From Ancrocorticia populi (GTDB lineage: Bacteria > Actinomycetota > Actinomycetes > Actinomycetales > Actinomycetaceae): DNA of 64,000 nt. The position numbers were made by a program, and so were the translations under genes. The notes under the pieces were generated by a model. The model ran no database searches. It saw only the letters and a list, made by a program, of their open reading frames with translations, and was not told the DNA's origin. The stretch is from NCBI RefSeq assembly GCF_003123745.1, contig NZ_QETB01000001.1:806001-870000 (forward strand), read 5' to 3'. Below are positions 1,509 to 37,705 of this stretch, piece by piece (within the stretch, counting starts at the first letter, position 1; each line of letters opens with the position of its first letter).

Positions 1509-2746
1509 AGCTCTGAGACGGTCACAAGGTCGTATCCAGCCAATTGAAGTTCGTCAATGATGGTTGGTACGGCCTTGACCGTTTCCGGGTGAATATCGTG
1601 CATCAGCACGATTGCGCCGGGCTCCGCCTTCTCGGTTGCTATCTCAATGTCCTTTTTGACGTCCCGATTCTTCCAATCGAGCGTGTCTAGGCTCCAGAGA
1701 ATCTGCGTTTGACCGCGTGAGGCGATCACTGATCGGACCGTTGCGTTTGTGGCGCCGTAGGGCGGGCGCACCAGCAGGGGTGCTGGCGCGCCCGCAGATT
1801 GAATGGCTTGATCGGTGGCCACGATCTGATTCGTTATGGTTGTCTGTGTTTGCTTCGAGAGGTCAAGGTGAGACCACGTGTGGTTGCCAACCTCGTGGCC
1901 CTCATCCGCCTCCCGCTTTACTAGATCCGGGTTGTTCGCGGCATTTCGGCCGATGAGGAAGAATGTGGCCTTAGCGTTCTTCTCCTTGAGCGTGTCGAGG
2001 AGCTGATCAGTGTATGGCCCGGGACCATCGTCAAACGTGAGGGCGATGCAGGGATTCTTTTCGCAGTTCGGCTCTGGCCGGGGGATGGGTTCGGGATCTT
2101 CGCCCTTCATCATCTGCCCGCGGATCTTCTCTCCTTTGGGCGAGAGCAGGGATTCTACCGGTCCAGAGACGCGGTACCCCTTGCTGTCTGCGACCACGGT
2201 GAGTGAGCCGTCGGGATTAGGAAACACTGCTGTTGGTTCTGCGGTTCCTCGGCTCTTCAGTTCTGAAATTCCCGCATCAGAGAGGATCTTGAGGCTATTG
2301 AGCGCGGAACCATCCTTCGAATCTGCGATCCACGCACGGTAGTGAATTCCATTCGCACTGATCGCGTAGCAGAGCATCGTTCCTGAAGCGCCGCAGATGC
2401 CGGCAGTTGTAGTGAGGGTGGCATCTTCCTCAGGGGCGAAAGCATCTACCTGCTTCTTCGTCCATTTCTCCACCGGGCCTTGGAGCTGTTCAGGCGCTCG
2501 CACGCCCGTGAGCGTAATTGAATCCTCTGGGGTAGTCTCGGTTTCCCAGAATCCGGGGATCTCGGAAAGATCATAAACCGAGATGTGTTCGGATTCGACC
2601 GTGAGCTGCTCGGCCGTGGGTGTAGGGGTAGATGTGGGTGTCTGTTCTACTTCGGCAGCCGGACGCTGGGCCGCCGTACAACCAGCGAGAACCAGCAGTG
2701 CCGCGGCCAGTGGAGCGGTGACCTTAGCCTTGATAGCGATAGACAT
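1505..2746 (-). CDS. Lipoprotein with NodB-type polysaccharide deacetylase domain
   Basis: The start is placed at the codon for MSIAIKAK because it gives a clean lipoprotein signal: charged N-terminus, hydrophobic core and a lipobox LAGC with the Cys about 23 residues in. An upstream ATG would bury this signal. A Pro/Thr-rich linker and an unassigned middle region (about 60-230) precede the C-terminal NodB domain. That domain shows LTFDDGPG (catalytic Asp and metal Asp), HTWSHLDL (metal His), RPPYGA and VLMHDIH. The family removes acetyl groups from peptidoglycan or other surface glycans, so an extracellular membrane-anchored enzyme is expected. It starts inside the 3' end of the acetyltransferase gene, pointing to translational coupling. 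Confidence 0.85.
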   Translation of the reverse strand: MSIAIKAKVTAPLAAALLVLAGCTAAQRPAAEVEQTPTSTPTPTAEQLTVESEHISVYDLSEIPGFWETETTPEDSITLTGVRAPEQLQGPVEKWTKKQVDAFAPEEDATLTTTAGICGASGTMLCYAISANGIHYRAWIADSKDGSALNSLKILSDAGISELKSRGTAEPTAVFPNPDGSLTVVADSKGYRVSGPVESLLSPKGEKIRGQMMKGEDPEPIPRPEPNCEKNPCIALTFDDGPGPYTDQLLDTLKEKNAKATFFLIGRNAANNPDLVKREADEGHEVGNHTWSHLDLSKQTQTTITNQIVATDQAIQSAGAPAPLLVRPPYGATNATVRSVIASRGQTQILWSLDTLDWKNRDVKKDIEIATEKAEPGAIVLMHDIHPETVKAVPTIIDELQLAGYDLVTVSEL

Positions 2747-3149
2747 TCGTTTCGCGAAGGCCGAACCCAGCGCGCTGGTAGAGCCTGTTTGCGGCTTCAC
2801 GCGAGGGGCGAGACGTGAGATCTACTGACTTTGAGCCGATCGCCTGAGCATGCTTGACGGCTGCCTCAACGAGGGCTTGGCCGGCGCCGTTACCACGGGC
2901 TGCGTCATCAACCACAACGTCTTCGATCCACGCACGCTTACCCGTGGGGATATCGAAAGTCGCGAGCGTAAGCATGCCGAGAATTGCCGAATTCTGACGA
3001 TAGATGAACAGGTACACAGACTCCTGATTCACAAAGGACTCCACGGTTGCCGCCGAAAGCGGTGGCGTAGAGGAGGAGAGCTGCGGAATCAGATTATTGA
3101 CAGCAGTGACGAGTTCGGGCGTTGATTCTGTAACCAGTTCGATGCTCAT
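2724..3149 (-). CDS. GNAT family N-acetyltransferase
   Basis: This 141-residue protein has a single GNAT fold. The acetyl-CoA-binding segment is visible as EDVVVDDAARGNGAGQALVE (motif A, R/Q-x-x-G-x-G/A type), followed by the C-terminal NRLYQRAGF block common to small GNATs. The acceptor substrate cannot be deduced. It sits 5 bases after nadE and overlaps the start of the deacetylase, so it belongs to the long minus-strand operon. Confidence 0.8.
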   Translation of the reverse strand: MSIELVTESTPELVTAVNNLIPQLSSSTPPLSAATVESFVNQESVYLFIYRQNSAILGMLTLATFDIPTGKRAWIEDVVVDDAARGNGAGQALVEAAVKHAQAIGSKSVDLTSRPSREAANRLYQRAGFGLRETNVYRYQG

Positions 3150-33218: not shown

Positions 33219-33310
33219 CTATTCTCCGAGCACTTGCTGTTCGAGCCAGAAGACGATCGCGCCGGTAGCCGCACCTTGTGCCCAGCGGTCACGCGCTACC
33301 GCTTGTCCAT
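33219..33310 (-). pseudogene. 3'-terminal remnant of a second ROK regulator gene
   Basis: On the minus strand the segment encodes DRWAQGAATGAIVFWLEQ and a stop 6 codons later. This is nearly identical to the end of the intact ROK gene at 36521-37705 (DRWAQGAATGAIVSWLEK). DNA identity is high over about 55 bases (33239-33290) and decays beyond. No ROK coding sequence continues upstream; the RiPP cluster begins there instead. It looks like a scar of recombination or insertion. Confidence 0.75.
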
Positions 33311-33389: not shown

Positions 33390-33403
33390 GGGACTATGGT
33401 CCC
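33390..33403. promoter_or_regulatory. DosR-like palindrome upstream of the RiPP precursor
   Basis: GGGACTATGGTCCC, perfect GGGAC/GTCCC arms. A possible -10 (TATAAG, 33425-33430) puts the box centre about 40 bases before the predicted transcription start, the usual activator position. The same 14-mer precedes pflB. Confidence 0.65.
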
Positions 33404-33461
33404 CATACTGGTTGTGAAACAGGTTATAAGACTGTATTGCGACACGAAGGGAGGTGTTGTC

Positions 33462-33578
33462 ATGTTGTTGATTCTGCTTCGTAAGCTGGGCTTTGGATCA
33501 GTCACCCCAATGGGGGGGATACGTGTCCCGCAAGATATATTCAACGTTAGGTCTTTCAGCGAGTTGTTTAGTGTCTGA
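33462..33578 (+). CDS. Putative RiPP precursor peptide (38 residues)
   Basis: A short gene with a strong ribosome site (GGGAGG, 8 bases from the ATG) lies directly before a radical SAM peptide-modifying enzyme. The peptide begins with a hydrophobic and basic segment (MLLILLRKLGFGSVTP), has a Gly-Gly at 18-19 and then a possible core IRVPQDIFNVRSFSELFSV. There is no Cys, Trp or Tyr. The tail contains three Phe-x-x triads (F27-N-V, F32-S-E, F36-S-V), the last ending at the C-terminus. I do not recognise a described family. Precursor identity is inferred from size, position and ribosome site. Confidence 0.7.
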   Translation: MLLILLRKLGFGSVTPMGGIRVPQDIFNVRSFSELFSV

Positions 33579-33622
33579 GCTAAGTGCGGGCTTCTCCAGA
33601 AATGATGCGCGCACTTAGCTCA
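33576..33622 (+). promoter_or_regulatory. Intergenic hairpin after the precursor gene
   Basis: A 13-bp perfect inverted repeat, TGAGCTAAGTGCG / CGCACTTAGCTCA, with a 21-base loop begins at the precursor stop codon and ends 21 bases before the radical SAM start. It lacks a T run, so it more likely stabilises the precursor mRNA end or partly attenuates downstream expression than stops transcription fully. Confidence 0.7.
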
Positions 33623-33643
33623 GAATGATTGGAGCTAGCGACA

Positions 33644-34771
33644 ATGATGTCGATCGCGGCATACCGGGGAAAACGAAAAGCGTATGTTTCTGCTGAGTCG
33701 GGGACTTATTACCTTCCAAGATTGATGGTTTCAAGGAAGAATCAGGTCAGTCATTTGGGGTTGGCAACTGTTCACCTCATTTCACGCCTCGAGAAGCAGC
33801 GGAGGCAACGATCCTTGCCTGTAGCATTCATGCCGGGTTTTGCCTGCAATCTCGCTTGCGAGTACTGCTATCAGAGGACTGATCCAACACACCGATCAGC
33901 CAAGCCAGTACTCTCAAAAGGCGGACCATCCTATGAGGATATTGCCAAATTCGTCAGCAGCGTAGCCGCCGCACACCGTGTTTCTAACGTTAATCTTTCT
34001 TTGCTAGGCGGAGAGCCGCTGATGTATCGCAGGCAGATAAGGGAGTTCGTAGGTGCACTCCGAGACCAAACAGATATCTCCGATATTTCGCTCGTCACCA
34101 ATGGGACATTGTTGAAGGAAGAGAATCTAACAGAGTTGATGGCACTTGGACTATCGTTCGCTCAAGTTACTTTTGATGGCTCAAGAGCTTTTCATGATCA
34201 TTTTCGGTCTTTTAAGTCGGGTACCGGAACATACGACGCCATCATGAAGAATTTGGTCAATCTCGCGGCTTCTCATGTGAAGTTAGAGATTCGGATCAAT
34301 CTGTCAGCGGCTAATATCCTCGATTGTGGAGAGCTAATTGATGACTTGGCACAGTGCGTGTCTCCGGAGCAAGTAGGTGTATGTTTGACACTCATTGACG
34401 ACACTAAGTTTTATTCTGAACCCGCTCAGAAGGGCGATGTGTTCTTCTCTCAGTACCGGAACCTAGTATCTTACACCTCTGGGAAAGGATTTCTAGTGTC
34501 GTTGCCAGGTCATAGTGGATTATGTAGAACTTGTGGCAACGCAGATGTGCCTGGCGGGCTAGTTGTTACTGCAGACGGCAAACTGTACAGCTGCTGGGAT
34601 AGTGCGGGACAACTTGGATTTGAGGTAGGCGACGTTCAGAATAGTTTCGCCTCAGATCGCCACAACCACTGGGTTCGTTGTGGCTATGGGAGCCCTGACG
34701 GCGCCGCGCTGCACCAGCGTTTGGCTCTTGAAGCGATCAAGGCAATCGAGGGTGAGAATGAGACTCTTTGA
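33644..34771 (+). CDS. Radical SAM/SPASM-like peptide-modifying enzyme
   Basis: This protein of about 375 residues has the radical SAM cluster motif C68-NLA-C72-EY-C75, followed by the glycine-rich SAM-binding segment LSLLGGEPLMYR near 125. The C-terminal region has Cys residues in CRTCGN and LYSCWDSAG, a shortened SPASM/Twitch-like auxiliary cluster region. The first 60 residues before the cluster could hold a degenerate peptide-recognition domain. Start 33644 was chosen because GGAG lies 9 bases upstream; a TTG 5 codons earlier is possible. Base composition is lower in GC than neighbours, suggesting transfer. It probably installs a crosslink in the upstream peptide. Confidence 0.85.
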   Translation: MMSIAAYRGKRKAYVSAESGTYYLPRLMVSRKNQVSHLGLATVHLISRLEKQRRQRSLPVAFMPGFACNLACEYCYQRTDPTHRSAKPVLSKGGPSYEDIAKFVSSVAAAHRVSNVNLSLLGGEPLMYRRQIREFVGALRDQTDISDISLVTNGTLLKEENLTELMALGLSFAQVTFDGSRAFHDHFRSFKSGTGTYDAIMKNLVNLAASHVKLEIRINLSAANILDCGELIDDLAQCVSPEQVGVCLTLIDDTKFYSEPAQKGDVFFSQYRNLVSYTSGKGFLVSLPGHSGLCRTCGNADVPGGLVVTADGKLYSCWDSAGQLGFEVGDVQNSFASDRHNHWVRCGYGSPDGAALHQRLALEAIKAIEGENETL

Positions 34772-36494
34772 GAACTACCCAATCTGGCTCTGGGCACTTC
34801 GGGTTGGGTTTCATGCGAGCCCATGGAGTGCTTGTCTTTCGACTCTGCTGATGATGACGCTAGCATTAATCCCTGCAATCAATGTCTTGTTAGTACGTGG
34901 GCTTGCCGAGAGACTGACCTCGGGCGATGGCAACATTCTGCCACTGATTCTGCTCGCAGGGCTCGTGTTCGGTGCTGGTGGGGCACTGGAACAAATAACG
35001 TATGCACTGTCACGCTTACATGCGATACGACTAGAGAACTTCGTTTGTGTGTGTTTTGATACTCGGTTAGCTCGTACCGATGCGCGTGACTATTCATCCT
35101 CTGGCTTCATGCGACGGGTTAGGAATGCCCGGCAGAGCACAGTCGAGGGCCAAGTATCCTCCCAGTTTCAGGCTTCTATTAACATTATCTGTGCCGTCAT
35201 TACTGCGGCATCGCTAGCTTTCGCCCTGTGGGATCTCAGTGAAAAGGCTGCGCTGGTAAGCCTTCTTGCTCCAGTACCAACAGTCATTGCATACGCGTGG
35301 TACGGCAGAAAGGAATCTCATTACTGGCCCCTGGCCAGCGAAGAAATGCGGCGGGCAACGTATCTGACGGATCAGATCGCCTATCAGCGAACCGGTAGTG
35401 AACTCGCCAGTTTGGATGCTTCAGTCGAGGTTGCGAGGCTTTCACGATCTCATCGCCGCAAGCATCTAGGTATCAGGCAGCGCCTAGAGGGAATGGCCGT
35501 ATGGGCAGATGTTCTCTCGGGACTTGCGACCATATTATTGTTTTGCGGCGCGCTCATATTTCTGTATCAAGATTCCGTCCATGAAACGGGCGCAGTATTC
35601 GCCGGGATTATCGGCTTAATGAGCGGAATCGGAGCTATGGCCGGCATTGGGTATCAAATTGGAGAGCTTGTAACGTCGATCCCGGCCAACAGCCATTTCA
35701 GACAGTTCATCAATTCGGGTTATCGTGATAAGGAGCGGCTTCGACTGAAGAATGTTGAGACGCTTCGAGTGGTGGACCTCTCCGTCCACTACGATGCACT
35801 ATGCGCAGTCAATAACATATCGATGACAGCGTATCGTGGGGGCGTCTGTGCTCTTGTGGGCGAGAATGGATCGGGAAAGACTTCTCTGATTAAGGCGATC
35901 ATGAATGTACAAGATAACGCTGATGGAAGCATTTATCTTGATCAGACTCGAATAAGACTGGGGCGAGACAACAACGTCTCCTATCCGTTTGCGGTTGTGC
36001 AGCAAGATTATGGACGGTACGAGATTTCGGTCCGTGAGCTTCTTGTTCTGGGACAAGACCACGAGCGCATCACCGACGATTCTCTGTGGAGTGCGTTGAC
36101 GCAGGCGGAAGCAGCGGGCTTTGTGGAAAATCTTCCCAAAGGCTTAGAAACCTTGCTGGGAGTCCAGTGGGGAGGCGTGGATGTTTCCGGTGGGCAGTGG
36201 CAGCGGTTGGCTCTTGCGAGGGCGTTTCTCAGTGACGCTCCTGTTTGGTTCCTTGATGAGCCCACTAGCGCGATTGATGCCCCAACAGAACAAAGGATTT
36301 TCGACAGGCTTGCTGAAGAGAGCAAGAATCATCTCATCATCTTGAGCAGCCACAGAGTCTCCACGCTACGATCTGCGCAGCAGATCTTCCTCCTTCGAGA
36401 AGGCAACATCGTTGAATCGGGAACATACTCTGAACTTCTTGCGGGCGGAACAGAGTTCCGCCGTATGTTTGAATCCCAGCTGTCGGGAAATTAG
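34758..36494 (+). CDS. ABC exporter (fused membrane and ATPase domains)
   Basis: This 578-residue half-transporter starts at 34758 (ribosome site GAGGGTGAG), overlapping the radical SAM gene by 14 bases. About six membrane spans (15-310) precede a nucleotide-binding domain with Walker A LVGENGSGKTSLIKA, Q-loop VVQQDYG, signature VSGGQWQRLALARAF, Walker B VWFLDEPTSA and H-loop SSHRVST. There is no N-terminal C39 peptidase domain, so any leader removal needs another protease. It likely exports the modified peptide or gives self-protection. Confidence 0.88.
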   Translation: MRLFENYPIWLWALRVGFHASPWSACLSTLLMMTLALIPAINVLLVRGLAERLTSGDGNILPLILLAGLVFGAGGALEQITYALSRLHAIRLENFVCVCFDTRLARTDARDYSSSGFMRRVRNARQSTVEGQVSSQFQASINIICAVITAASLAFALWDLSEKAALVSLLAPVPTVIAYAWYGRKESHYWPLASEEMRRATYLTDQIAYQRTGSELASLDASVEVARLSRSHRRKHLGIRQRLEGMAVWADVLSGLATILLFCGALIFLYQDSVHETGAVFAGIIGLMSGIGAMAGIGYQIGELVTSIPANSHFRQFINSGYRDKERLRLKNVETLRVVDLSVHYDALCAVNNISMTAYRGGVCALVGENGSGKTSLIKAIMNVQDNADGSIYLDQTRIRLGRDNNVSYPFAVVQQDYGRYEISVRELLVLGQDHERITDDSLWSALTQAEAAGFVENLPKGLETLLGVQWGGVDVSGGQWQRLALARAFLSDAPVWFLDEPTSAIDAPTEQRIFDRLAEESKNHLIILSSHRVSTLRSAQQIFLLREGNIVESGTYSELLAGGTEFRRMFESQLSGN

Positions 36495-36520: not shown

Positions 36521-37705
36521 CTAGACATTTTCCACAACCTTTTCGAGCCAAGAAACGATCGCGCCGGTAGCCGCACCTTGCGCCCAGCGATCAAAGCTGC
36601 CGTCGCGCTTGTGCACCGTTAACCCGGGCAGGTTCGGGCTCTTAAATTGGGTAATACTGCCAGAGAATGTTTGCGCCCACGGTGTGTCAAGGAGCGCGGT
36701 GGCCTCGCCATCAAGGATCACATCAGTGACCATCGCCGCCCCGCATACTGTCTGAACGTATGTGGAGAGGTTCGTGCCGAATTCGGCGATCGCGAACTGG
36801 CATGAGGGATCACCGGCCTGGGCAAGTTCGATCAGTTCGTCTAGCGAGTTCGGTCCCGGTTCAAGGTTGGCGATCGAACGGGCCCCGGCCGCACGGGCGA
36901 GGACCGCGGGTGTGGTCAAAACGCCGTTGGCACACCCGACGTGGCCATATTGGCATACGCCTTTCGCCCCAAAAAGCGGAATGTGGCTGGTGGAGCTATA
37001 TCCCTCAAATCGTGAATCAACGGCCCTGCGGTTGTGCACAATCCCATGCCCGATTCCCGCGCCCACCGTTGCAATGATGAAGTTGGATTCCTGCCGCCCA
37101 AGCCCAAACCACTGCTCCAGCATCGTGAGCGCAACAATATCGTTGAACACGTGCACCTGCGCACTGACATCCTCAAGCATCGCAGCGATATCCACGTTGC
37201 GCCACTCCAGGAATCGGCTTTCCACCACGCGGTTGTGGGCGATATGCCCCCCGGCGGATATTCCGATGTGCTCGATGAGCGGGCTAGGGGCCGCCTCTGT
37301 GAGCCGCGAGATGAGTTCACCTATCTGCGCAACTCCATCGCGCGGATCGCGAGACCGGAGGGGCTCCGATAGCGCCACTAGCGGATTCGCCTGTGTATCC
37401 GTCACCACGCCGTAGGCTGTGGTTGTTGTCAAATTGATCCCGATGAAGTGATGGGCGTCAGATGGAACCTCGAGGAGCTGTGTGGGCCGCCCAATCCCCG
37501 ATTGGGGTGTACCGATCTGGGAATCGGTCACCATGCCCGAATCTACGAGGGGGCGGACTAGGCGGGTGAGAGTGGCTCCCGATAGGGAAAGCTCTCTGGC
37601 CGCGTCTGCGCGGGAGATAGGCCCCGCGGTCAGCACGTGTGCCGCTGTGGCCAGTGCGGAATCGTCAAATAGACGGAACATATTCCCTCGCTCTTCCAAG
37701 CTCAA
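36521..37705 (-). CDS. ROK-family transcriptional regulator
   Basis: This 394-residue protein has an N-terminal winged helix (SRADAARELSLSGATLTRLVRPLVDSG) followed by a sugar-kinase-like ROK domain with the ATP-site-like FIGINLTTTTAYGVV and the Zn-type CQYGHVGCANGVL motif. An alternative start is MFRLFDD, 8 codons in. It is divergent from the alpha-galactosidase operon and is its probable repressor (XylR/NagC type). Its 3' end is duplicated as a remnant on the far side of the RiPP cluster. Confidence 0.88.
   Translation of the reverse strand: MSLEERGNMFRLFDDSALATAAHVLTAGPISRADAARELSLSGATLTRLVRPLVDSGMVTDSQIGTPQSGIGRPTQLLEVPSDAHHFIGINLTTTTAYGVVTDTQANPLVALSEPLRSRDPRDGVAQIGELISRLTEAAPSPLIEHIGISAGGHIAHNRVVESRFLEWRNVDIAAMLEDVSAQVHVFNDIVALTMLEQWFGLGRQESNFIIATVGAGIGHGIVHNRRAVDSRFEGYSSTSHIPLFGAKGVCQYGHVGCANGVLTTPAVLARAAGARSIANLEPGPNSLDELIELAQAGDPSCQFAIAEFGTNLSTYVQTVCGAAMVTDVILDGEATALLDTPWAQTFSGSITQFKSPNLPGLTVHKRDGSFDRWAQGAATGAIVSWLEKVVENV

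Follow-up and report, generated by a model that had tools for sequence, protein, structure and literature searches.

Among described systems in which a radical S-adenosylmethionine (SAM) enzyme acts on a cysteine of a ribosomally synthesized and post-translationally modified peptide (RiPP), NxxcA joins Cys23 of its peptide to Asn20, an acceptor ahead of the cysteine (PMC8326336), and PapB is reported to join Cys to Asp in a C-x3-D motif and to accept different spacings, though not the two residues transposed (PMC9413430); the former report gives the auxiliary domain of SkfB as of the twitch type (PMC8326336). Here we compare with these systems a locus of Ancrocorticia populi lying within a 64,000-nucleotide stretch of contig NZ_QETB01000001.1 (positions 806,001 to 870,000, forward strand; hereafter the window), in which a short peptide open reading frame (ORF) is followed by genes for a radical SAM enzyme and a fused ATP-binding cassette (ABC) exporter. 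An earlier note on this DNA took the three genes for an RiPP-like cluster, and this holds, the same unit of precursor, radical SAM enzyme and transporter being present in decayed form in Trueperella bernardiae (locus L029) of the same family and at loci in another family of the order (L064) and in a third family (L065). We consider it likely that the cluster is a real radical SAM RiPP (RaS-RiPP) cluster of a rare family whose Cys-core precursor has been displaced into the -1 frame by a tract of seven G (G7), the 38-residue peptide read in the 0 frame being an out-of-frame product.

All three close relatives encode a cysteine-containing peptide ahead of the enzyme. In T. bernardiae this peptide (MLLALLRKLGFGTFTPMDDKCP) consists of the leader MLLALLRKLGFGTFTPM followed in frame by DDKCP and a stop; the L064 peptide (MFRKIAEALGIDVVIRWDDKCPAYRR) ends in W-DDKCP-AYRR; and that of L065 (MVKFMCNLFGIEIVPAGGGRCADHCGGRMPIPGQKPL), on the reverse strand, is a 37-mer with the motif RCADHC. 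The L064 and L065 peptides were chosen by eye, each being a small ORF that lies ahead of the enzyme and has a ribosome site, and because the listed L064 enzyme ORF begins inside the peptide ORF the true enzyme start should lie later. An Asp stands two residues ahead of a Cys in 3 of 3 peptides, the T. bernardiae and L064 cores having a single Cys and the L065 peptide D-H-C and two further Cys. Over the five core codons T. bernardiae and L064 agree at 14 of 15 bases, a near-identity that contrasts with enzymes which, coming from different families, share about a third.

The strong ribosome site noted earlier ahead of the short ORF of the window, GGAGGTG, also precedes the peptides of T. bernardiae and L064. 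Of the 38-mer, no more than the initial 17 codons can be matched in a relative: over these 17 residues the leader and the T. bernardiae peptide are 82% identical (tblastn against 15 loci, E 1e-4), and the DNA pattern of the leader is present in 2 of 213 genomes of the family, the window's own and T. bernardiae, in both cases at this locus. The leader ends with ATG and seven G, beyond which the 0 frame reads IRVPQDIFNV..., without counterpart in the three close relatives, and the -1 frame reads GDTCPARYIQR followed by a stop, lining up with DDKCP(AYRR). Among random sequences with the dinucleotide frequencies of the cluster, read in any of three frames and at four offsets, 146 of 200,000 match DDKCP as well. 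At the base level the displaced core agrees with that of T. bernardiae at 10 of 15 positions and with that of L064 at 11 of 15 (best of nine tract lengths), the former agreement being attained by 243 of 100,000 base shuffles. The G7 tract would shift the matching Cys core into the -1 frame behind the leader MLLILLRKLGFGSVTPM, and production in the sequenced genome would be off, or would occur only via slippage at the tract. Direct translation of the Cys frame from a start codon of its own was considered and rejected, as there is an upstream stop with no start between (by eye).

The peptide is followed by a strong stem-loop in the window (z -3.6 for positions 33551-33635) and likewise in T. bernardiae (z -2.2, with 5 of 200 shuffles folding as well) and L064 (z -2.7). 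The main stem lies 36 nt from the stop in T. bernardiae, where weaker hairpins also form closer to the stop, 12 nt from it in L064, and 23 nt from the -1-frame stop of the window (33548-33550); the 0-frame stop of the 38-mer falls within the stem-loop. A terminator role for this structure was discarded, since it has no T run (by eye) and the sole terminator-like site is elsewhere.

These comparisons bear on the proposal that the 38-mer is itself the true precursor, giving a Cys-free RiPP with Phe-x-x triads crosslinked as in triceptides, which we regard as very improbable. Its ORF is open in frame behind a good ribosome site, and two cyclophane-maturase models, YhhB and FxsB, match the enzyme weakly (78 and 70 bits); however, both models miss their cut-offs (445 and 370) and score under TIGR04463, geopeptide and CefB, the tail is absent from three close relatives that all have Cys cores, the relatives' core is matched by the -1 frame, and the 0-frame stop is placed inside a stem-loop. 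The earlier note had described the peptide as free of Cys, Trp and Tyr, which is accurate for the ORF as read and is not supported for the precursor given the Cys cores of the relatives. It had also rightly placed F27, F32 and F36, but the triads have no counterpart in 3 of 3 close relatives, where Phe occurs in the leader part (for example F-G-T in T. bernardiae); the homologue comparison that it suggested does find a small ORF beside related enzymes, but not the tail Phe positions, and with these unconserved and the cyclophane-maturase models far under cut-off the crosslinks proposed for the tail are not supported. The Gly-Gly at 18-19, previously set against the missing C39 protease, is encoded by the G tract itself, and the idea of C39/Gly-Gly processing was dropped on that account. 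On the sequence comparisons above, displacement of the frame at the G tract best accounts for the Cys-free precursor, for the Gly-Gly and for the Phe tail alike, and with this the cyclophane proposal loses its basis; the 0-frame tail is probably not an evolved core.

Several observations weigh against a displaced Cys core. The base-level agreement holds at one tract length only and not at every length that opens the -1 frame, a default MAFFT alignment places no gap at the tract, and the displaced core reads G-D-T-C-P where the relatives have D-D-K-C-P. A tblastn search with the 38-mer misses the L064 and L065 peptides, and the leader is common to one peptide only, that of T. bernardiae, which could itself be altered because its own enzyme and exporter genes are broken. 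PapB is reported to take C-x3-D and to refuse an Asp placed before the Cys, so that the order here differs from that of PapB (PMC9413430). Finally, the AlphaFold model of the window enzyme is weak (mean predicted local distance difference test score, pLDDT, 52.5), and neither the model nor its PDB matches are relied on.

As stated in the earlier note, the enzyme is a radical SAM protein with a CxxxCxxC motif (Pfam Radical_SAM, 2e-13), passing the generic Radical_SAM and Fer4_12 models. Seven Cys are invariant in the three aligned intact enzymes, C73, C77 and C80 for the radical SAM cluster and C299, C302, C322 and C351 as ligands for one auxiliary cluster, and the T. bernardiae enzyme fragments retain all seven. 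A full SPASM motif comprises seven Cys; the C-terminal Cys of the window enzyme are arranged as C-x2-C-x14-G-x4-C plus one more, which includes the first half of that motif, C-x14-G-x4-C. Of the SPASM-like region described previously, the four conserved C-terminal Cys are upheld and the full motif is not, and we take this four-Cys layout with a single auxiliary cluster to be twitch rather than full SPASM. No NCBIfam cut-off is reached by the window enzyme (best 25 of 78 matches) or by those of L064 and L065 (best 25 of 72 and of 70). The best profiles for the window enzyme are TIGR04463 (123.8 bits, cut-off 525), geopeptide (121, cut-off 400) and CefB (94, cut-off 600); the PapB (83, cut-off 340) and SCIFF (64, cut-off 425) models are also below cut-off, DynA is far below, and GrrM/OscB is among the matches listed for L065 alone (50, cut-off 310). 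The peptides match no NCBIfam family and the 38-mer also no Pfam family, in line with the earlier view that no described family fits. Among 12 solved relatives found by sequence at 1e-3, the first are 5wgg, ChlB and SkfB, with viperins and MoaA included thereafter; 5wgg is entered as 'Radical SAM domain protein' and is presumably the thioether enzyme CteB.

D-x-C cores are present in T. bernardiae, L064 and L065, and in the window in the -1 frame only, outside the annotated ORF. The enzyme would link the core Cys to carbon in a residue close by, for which the Asp two residues ahead of the Cys is the simplest candidate. A host protease would then trim the peptide, and the ABC protein would export it and also protect the producer. 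A ranthipeptide-like thioether between Cys and an Asp carbon would be the simplest product, as far as motifs can suggest one, and sactionine-type or other Cys chemistry is a possible alternative.

The exporter (Pfam ABC_tran, 7e-23) has no C39 peptidase match in Pfam at E 0.1, bearing out the description of a fused exporter without this protease. Homologues stand next after the enzyme in L064 (37% identity) and L065 (31%, in two tandem copies), and six other genomes of the family have homologues at 48-55%, four weaker matches (28-30%) not being counted. An intact enzyme is found in none of these six; fragments are present in four (two pieces in T. bernardiae and remnants of 46, 47 and 27 residues in the others, the last at E 0.003) and none were found at E 1 in two. 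Five of the six exporters are open, that of T. bernardiae being broken. Because the exporter is kept where the enzyme has been lost, we infer that it may confer immunity, and its retention after loss of production would fit protection against a secreted antibacterial peptide. At the individual loci, the enzyme gene of T. bernardiae is broken within L029 3557-6250, and L030, L052 and L054 have an enzyme reduced to a C-terminal fragment beside an open exporter; the L030 fragment follows IS3-like transposase ORFs (by eye), and in L055 a fragment resembling the enzyme C terminus (about 2710-2890, reverse strand, by eye) lies ahead of a 34% exporter homologue.

The enzyme is rare among the 213 family, 396 order, 394 class and 188 phylum genomes in which it was sought, with matches in 9 of the family genomes at 1e-10, 6 of the order genomes at 1e-20 (own and T. 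bernardiae counted in), 9 of the class genomes at 1e-25 (own and that of L065 counted in) and 2 of the phylum genomes at 1e-40, one being its own; among the 99 nearest genomes it was matched in 26 at 1e-3, mostly weakly. Searches for further members around L064 and L065 (47 and 226 genomes, 1e-50) returned their own genomes only. The T. bernardiae enzyme, in two pieces, is 44-48% identical to that of the window, and the L064 and L065 enzymes are 35% identical to it in the order search (34% for L064 in the alignment) and 37% identical to each other; C-terminal enzyme fragments occur in three further family genomes. A contig scan with the enzyme alone gave no relative and one with a two-row alignment of the enzyme C terminus gave T. 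bernardiae only, while viral contig scans gave no usable relative, two loci matching over just 13-16 residues. Plasmids and phages yielded only distant radical SAM proteins (below 60% identity, at most 31% among the matches listed), the 38-mer had two plasmid matches only (E 8 and 10), and the L064 exporter half had no match in plasmids. The core comparison leaves out L066 and L067 (enzyme 30-32%) and the class-level relatives as more distant; at class level 5 of 7 other genomes were inspected (L078-L083, two places in one), G669 and G906 being left out. L066 and L067 have no homologue of the window exporter and have neighbours resembling major facilitator superfamily proteins (by eye). Small Cys-containing ORFs were seen by eye in L066 (on the other strand), L067, L079, L080 and L081, those of L066, L080 and L081 being acidic (for example EEAPEVVAHSGEESEDAPGC), and no convincing one was seen by eye in L078 or L083. 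L031/L032 were left out as another subfamily (452-aa enzyme at 27%, exporter at 33%, different gene order); a small ORF ending in ESCCCRTQR, with CCC, lies beside the radical SAM/exporter pair at L031 5183-5278 (by eye), and this pair is possibly a separate RiPP family.

Across the entire genome of 2.65 Mb in 8 contigs the G7 pattern has 28 overlapping matches; when merged by hand these make nine G/C runs of at least 7, of which five are within 70 bases of contig ends and four are internal; the tract in the precursor is the only such run in the window. Two paralogous small proteins on contig C4 (L116, 1499-1505, and L117, 1708-1715), 44% identical and without a match in Pfam or NCBIfam, carry two of the internal runs, of 7 and 8, in starts that resemble signal peptides (by eye); the run of one is in frame and in L117 start and body occupy different frames, making these possible phase-variable secreted proteins. 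The fourth internal run is outside any ORF of at least 60 aa. This internal pattern suggests contingency loci. Runs of 7-13 G or C at the end of contig C2 (L113) and the start of C3 (L114), within 70 bases of the ends, are probably assembly breakpoints.

One explanation for the displaced frame is phase variation, the tract being a contingency switch that, by slipped-strand mispairing, would have the Cys-core precursor expressed in some cells and silent in others, with the sequenced clone off; we hold this as a tentative possibility, short of probable. It accords with the scarcity of internal runs of at least 7 (four in 2.65 Mb, one of them here), with the two in the starts of paralogous small proteins, one out of frame, and with enzyme and exporter genes that are both open. 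A report on Mycobacterium tuberculosis, likewise an actinobacterium, describes variation of glpK at an identical GGGGGGG tract whose length changes alter the frame, the comparison being limited in that glpK encodes a metabolic enzyme and is known from many isolates, against one genome here (PMC6667613). The tract is, however, missing in T. bernardiae and L064, so that a switch would be lineage-specific, and a single genome of this kind is equally what sequencing error or decay would predict. Moreover, seven bases is short for a classical phase-variation switch. A phase-variable RiPP precursor, in which a G tract lying exactly where a conserved leader meets a conserved Cys core slips between a modified Cys peptide and the leader with an unrelated tail while the enzyme and exporter stay on, is put forward with some reserve. 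Other small, apparently secreted proteins of this genome also have G tracts at their starts, so that contingency control might be a general feature of exported peptides in the lineage.

A sequencing or assembly error in the homopolymer, with the living strain reading the Cys core in frame, is a somewhat unlikely but credible explanation. Homopolymers are error-prone, and two genes at such tracts, the precursor and L117, look out of frame; on the other hand, of the 19 further runs of 6-7 in the window, 13 are within open frames of at least 150 aa (the remaining six being outside such frames). Unlikely, to a similar degree, is early decay, in which the precursor was lost by frameshift and the exporter kept as immunity. 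Family relatives did lose the enzyme and keep the exporter, but here the enzyme and exporter frames are both still open across 2.9 kb, and the lesion would coincide with a G/C run of a kind that occurs internally just four times in the genome. No second genome of the genus was present among the 99 nearest and 213 family genomes searched, which leaves room for error and decay alike. Programmed -1 ribosomal or transcriptional slippage on the tract, yielding two peptides from one gene, we think highly unlikely. The seven G are phased as a -1 slippery heptamer would be (G GGG GGG), with the core in the -1 frame, but 104 of 200 shuffles fold as well as positions 33515-33570 do (z 0.09), and T. bernardiae and L064 need no frameshift.

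Searches of the open-licence literature returned nothing joining phase variation with RiPP and homopolymeric (a looser wording on bacteriocin precursors did match papers), nothing joining Trueperella bernardiae with radical SAM, and nothing joining Actinomycetaceae, RiPP, precursor and radical SAM. The locus appears, from its sequence, to be a RaS-RiPP cluster of a rare family of which we could not find a description. The expected chemistry is corrected from Phe cyclophane to Cys-based, and the comparison points to a small family of enzymes and precursors in which members from two bacterial families have an almost identical D-D-K-C-P core. If the G tract is indeed a switch, RiPP production would be linked to homopolymer phase variation; more generally, precursor ORFs called from a single genome can be frame artefacts.

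The features of the locus are collected in the table. The GC content of the cluster (33390-36494) is 0.51, whereas the two adjoining 5-kb stretches reach 0.615 and 0.587, agreeing with the lower value remarked on earlier, and the exporter gene overlaps the maturase gene by 14 nt. The cluster is bracketed by two copies of a 55-nt direct repeat that are 89% alike, and together with the low GC content this repeat indicates that the cluster may have been acquired; the repeat suggests either insertion of the cluster or loss of a tandem ROK copy.

Table. Features of the precursor, maturase and exporter locus and of the bracketing repeat (window positions).
Feature	Position	Strand	Basis
55-nt direct repeat, left copy	33237..33291	not assigned	resembles ROK gene 3' end remnant (by eye)
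Shine-Dalgarno GGAGGTG of precursor	33450..33456	+	sequence
38-aa peptide ORF (0 frame), MLLILLRKLGFGSVTPMGGIRVPQDIFNVRSFSELFSV	33462..33578	+	sequence
Precursor leader, MLLILLRKLGFGSVTPM	33462..33512	+	likeness to T. bernardiae peptide
G7 homopolymer at leader/core junction, where similarity changes frame	33512..33518	+	sequence
Cys core in -1 frame, DTCPARYIQR + stop	33518..33550	+	aligns with DDKCP (T. bernardiae) and DDKCPAYRR (L064)
0-frame tail of 38-mer, IRVPQDIFNVRSFSELFSV + stop	33519..33578	+	without counterpart in three close relatives
Stem-loop after the precursor and ahead of the enzyme gene; arms of 21 nt with 90% complementarity	33574..33624	+	folding
Radical SAM maturase; start TTG 33629 or ATG 33644/33647	33629..34771	+	Pfam
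Fused ABC exporter, 578 aa from probable start ATG 34758	34758..36494	+	Pfam ABC_tran
55-nt direct repeat, right copy	36539..36593	not assigned	inside 3' end of ROK-family gene 36521-37705(-), Pfam

Compared with known systems, the locus resembles the triceptide systems (FxsB, YhhB, DynA; GrrM/OscB) in the radical SAM fold alone, and differs from them in that FxsB, YhhB and DynA score far below cut-off and the Phe tail is missing from the three close relatives. SkfB, a sactipeptide enzyme, is a weak sequence match (7e-6), and its rank of 2 behind a viperin in the fold search comes from the low-confidence model and is not relied on. The TIGR04463, geopeptide and CefB maturases give the top three profile matches of the window enzyme, but all are far under their cut-offs, the cores here have one to three Cys, and the TIGR04463 and CefB matches stop about 40 residues short of the enzyme end. 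With the ranthipeptides NxxcA and freyrasin (PapA/PapB) the locus shares a small precursor, the presence of one or more auxiliary clusters in the radical SAM enzyme and, in the relatives and in the -1 frame of the window, a Cys near Asn or Asp (PMC8326336, PMC9413430). It differs from PapB in profile score and, by Cys count, in having one auxiliary cluster, and its D-x-C spacing is unlike both the Asn20/Cys23 pair and C-x3-D; in the placing of the acceptor before the Cys, as D-x-C would have it, NxxcA is the system that it resembles (PMC8326336).

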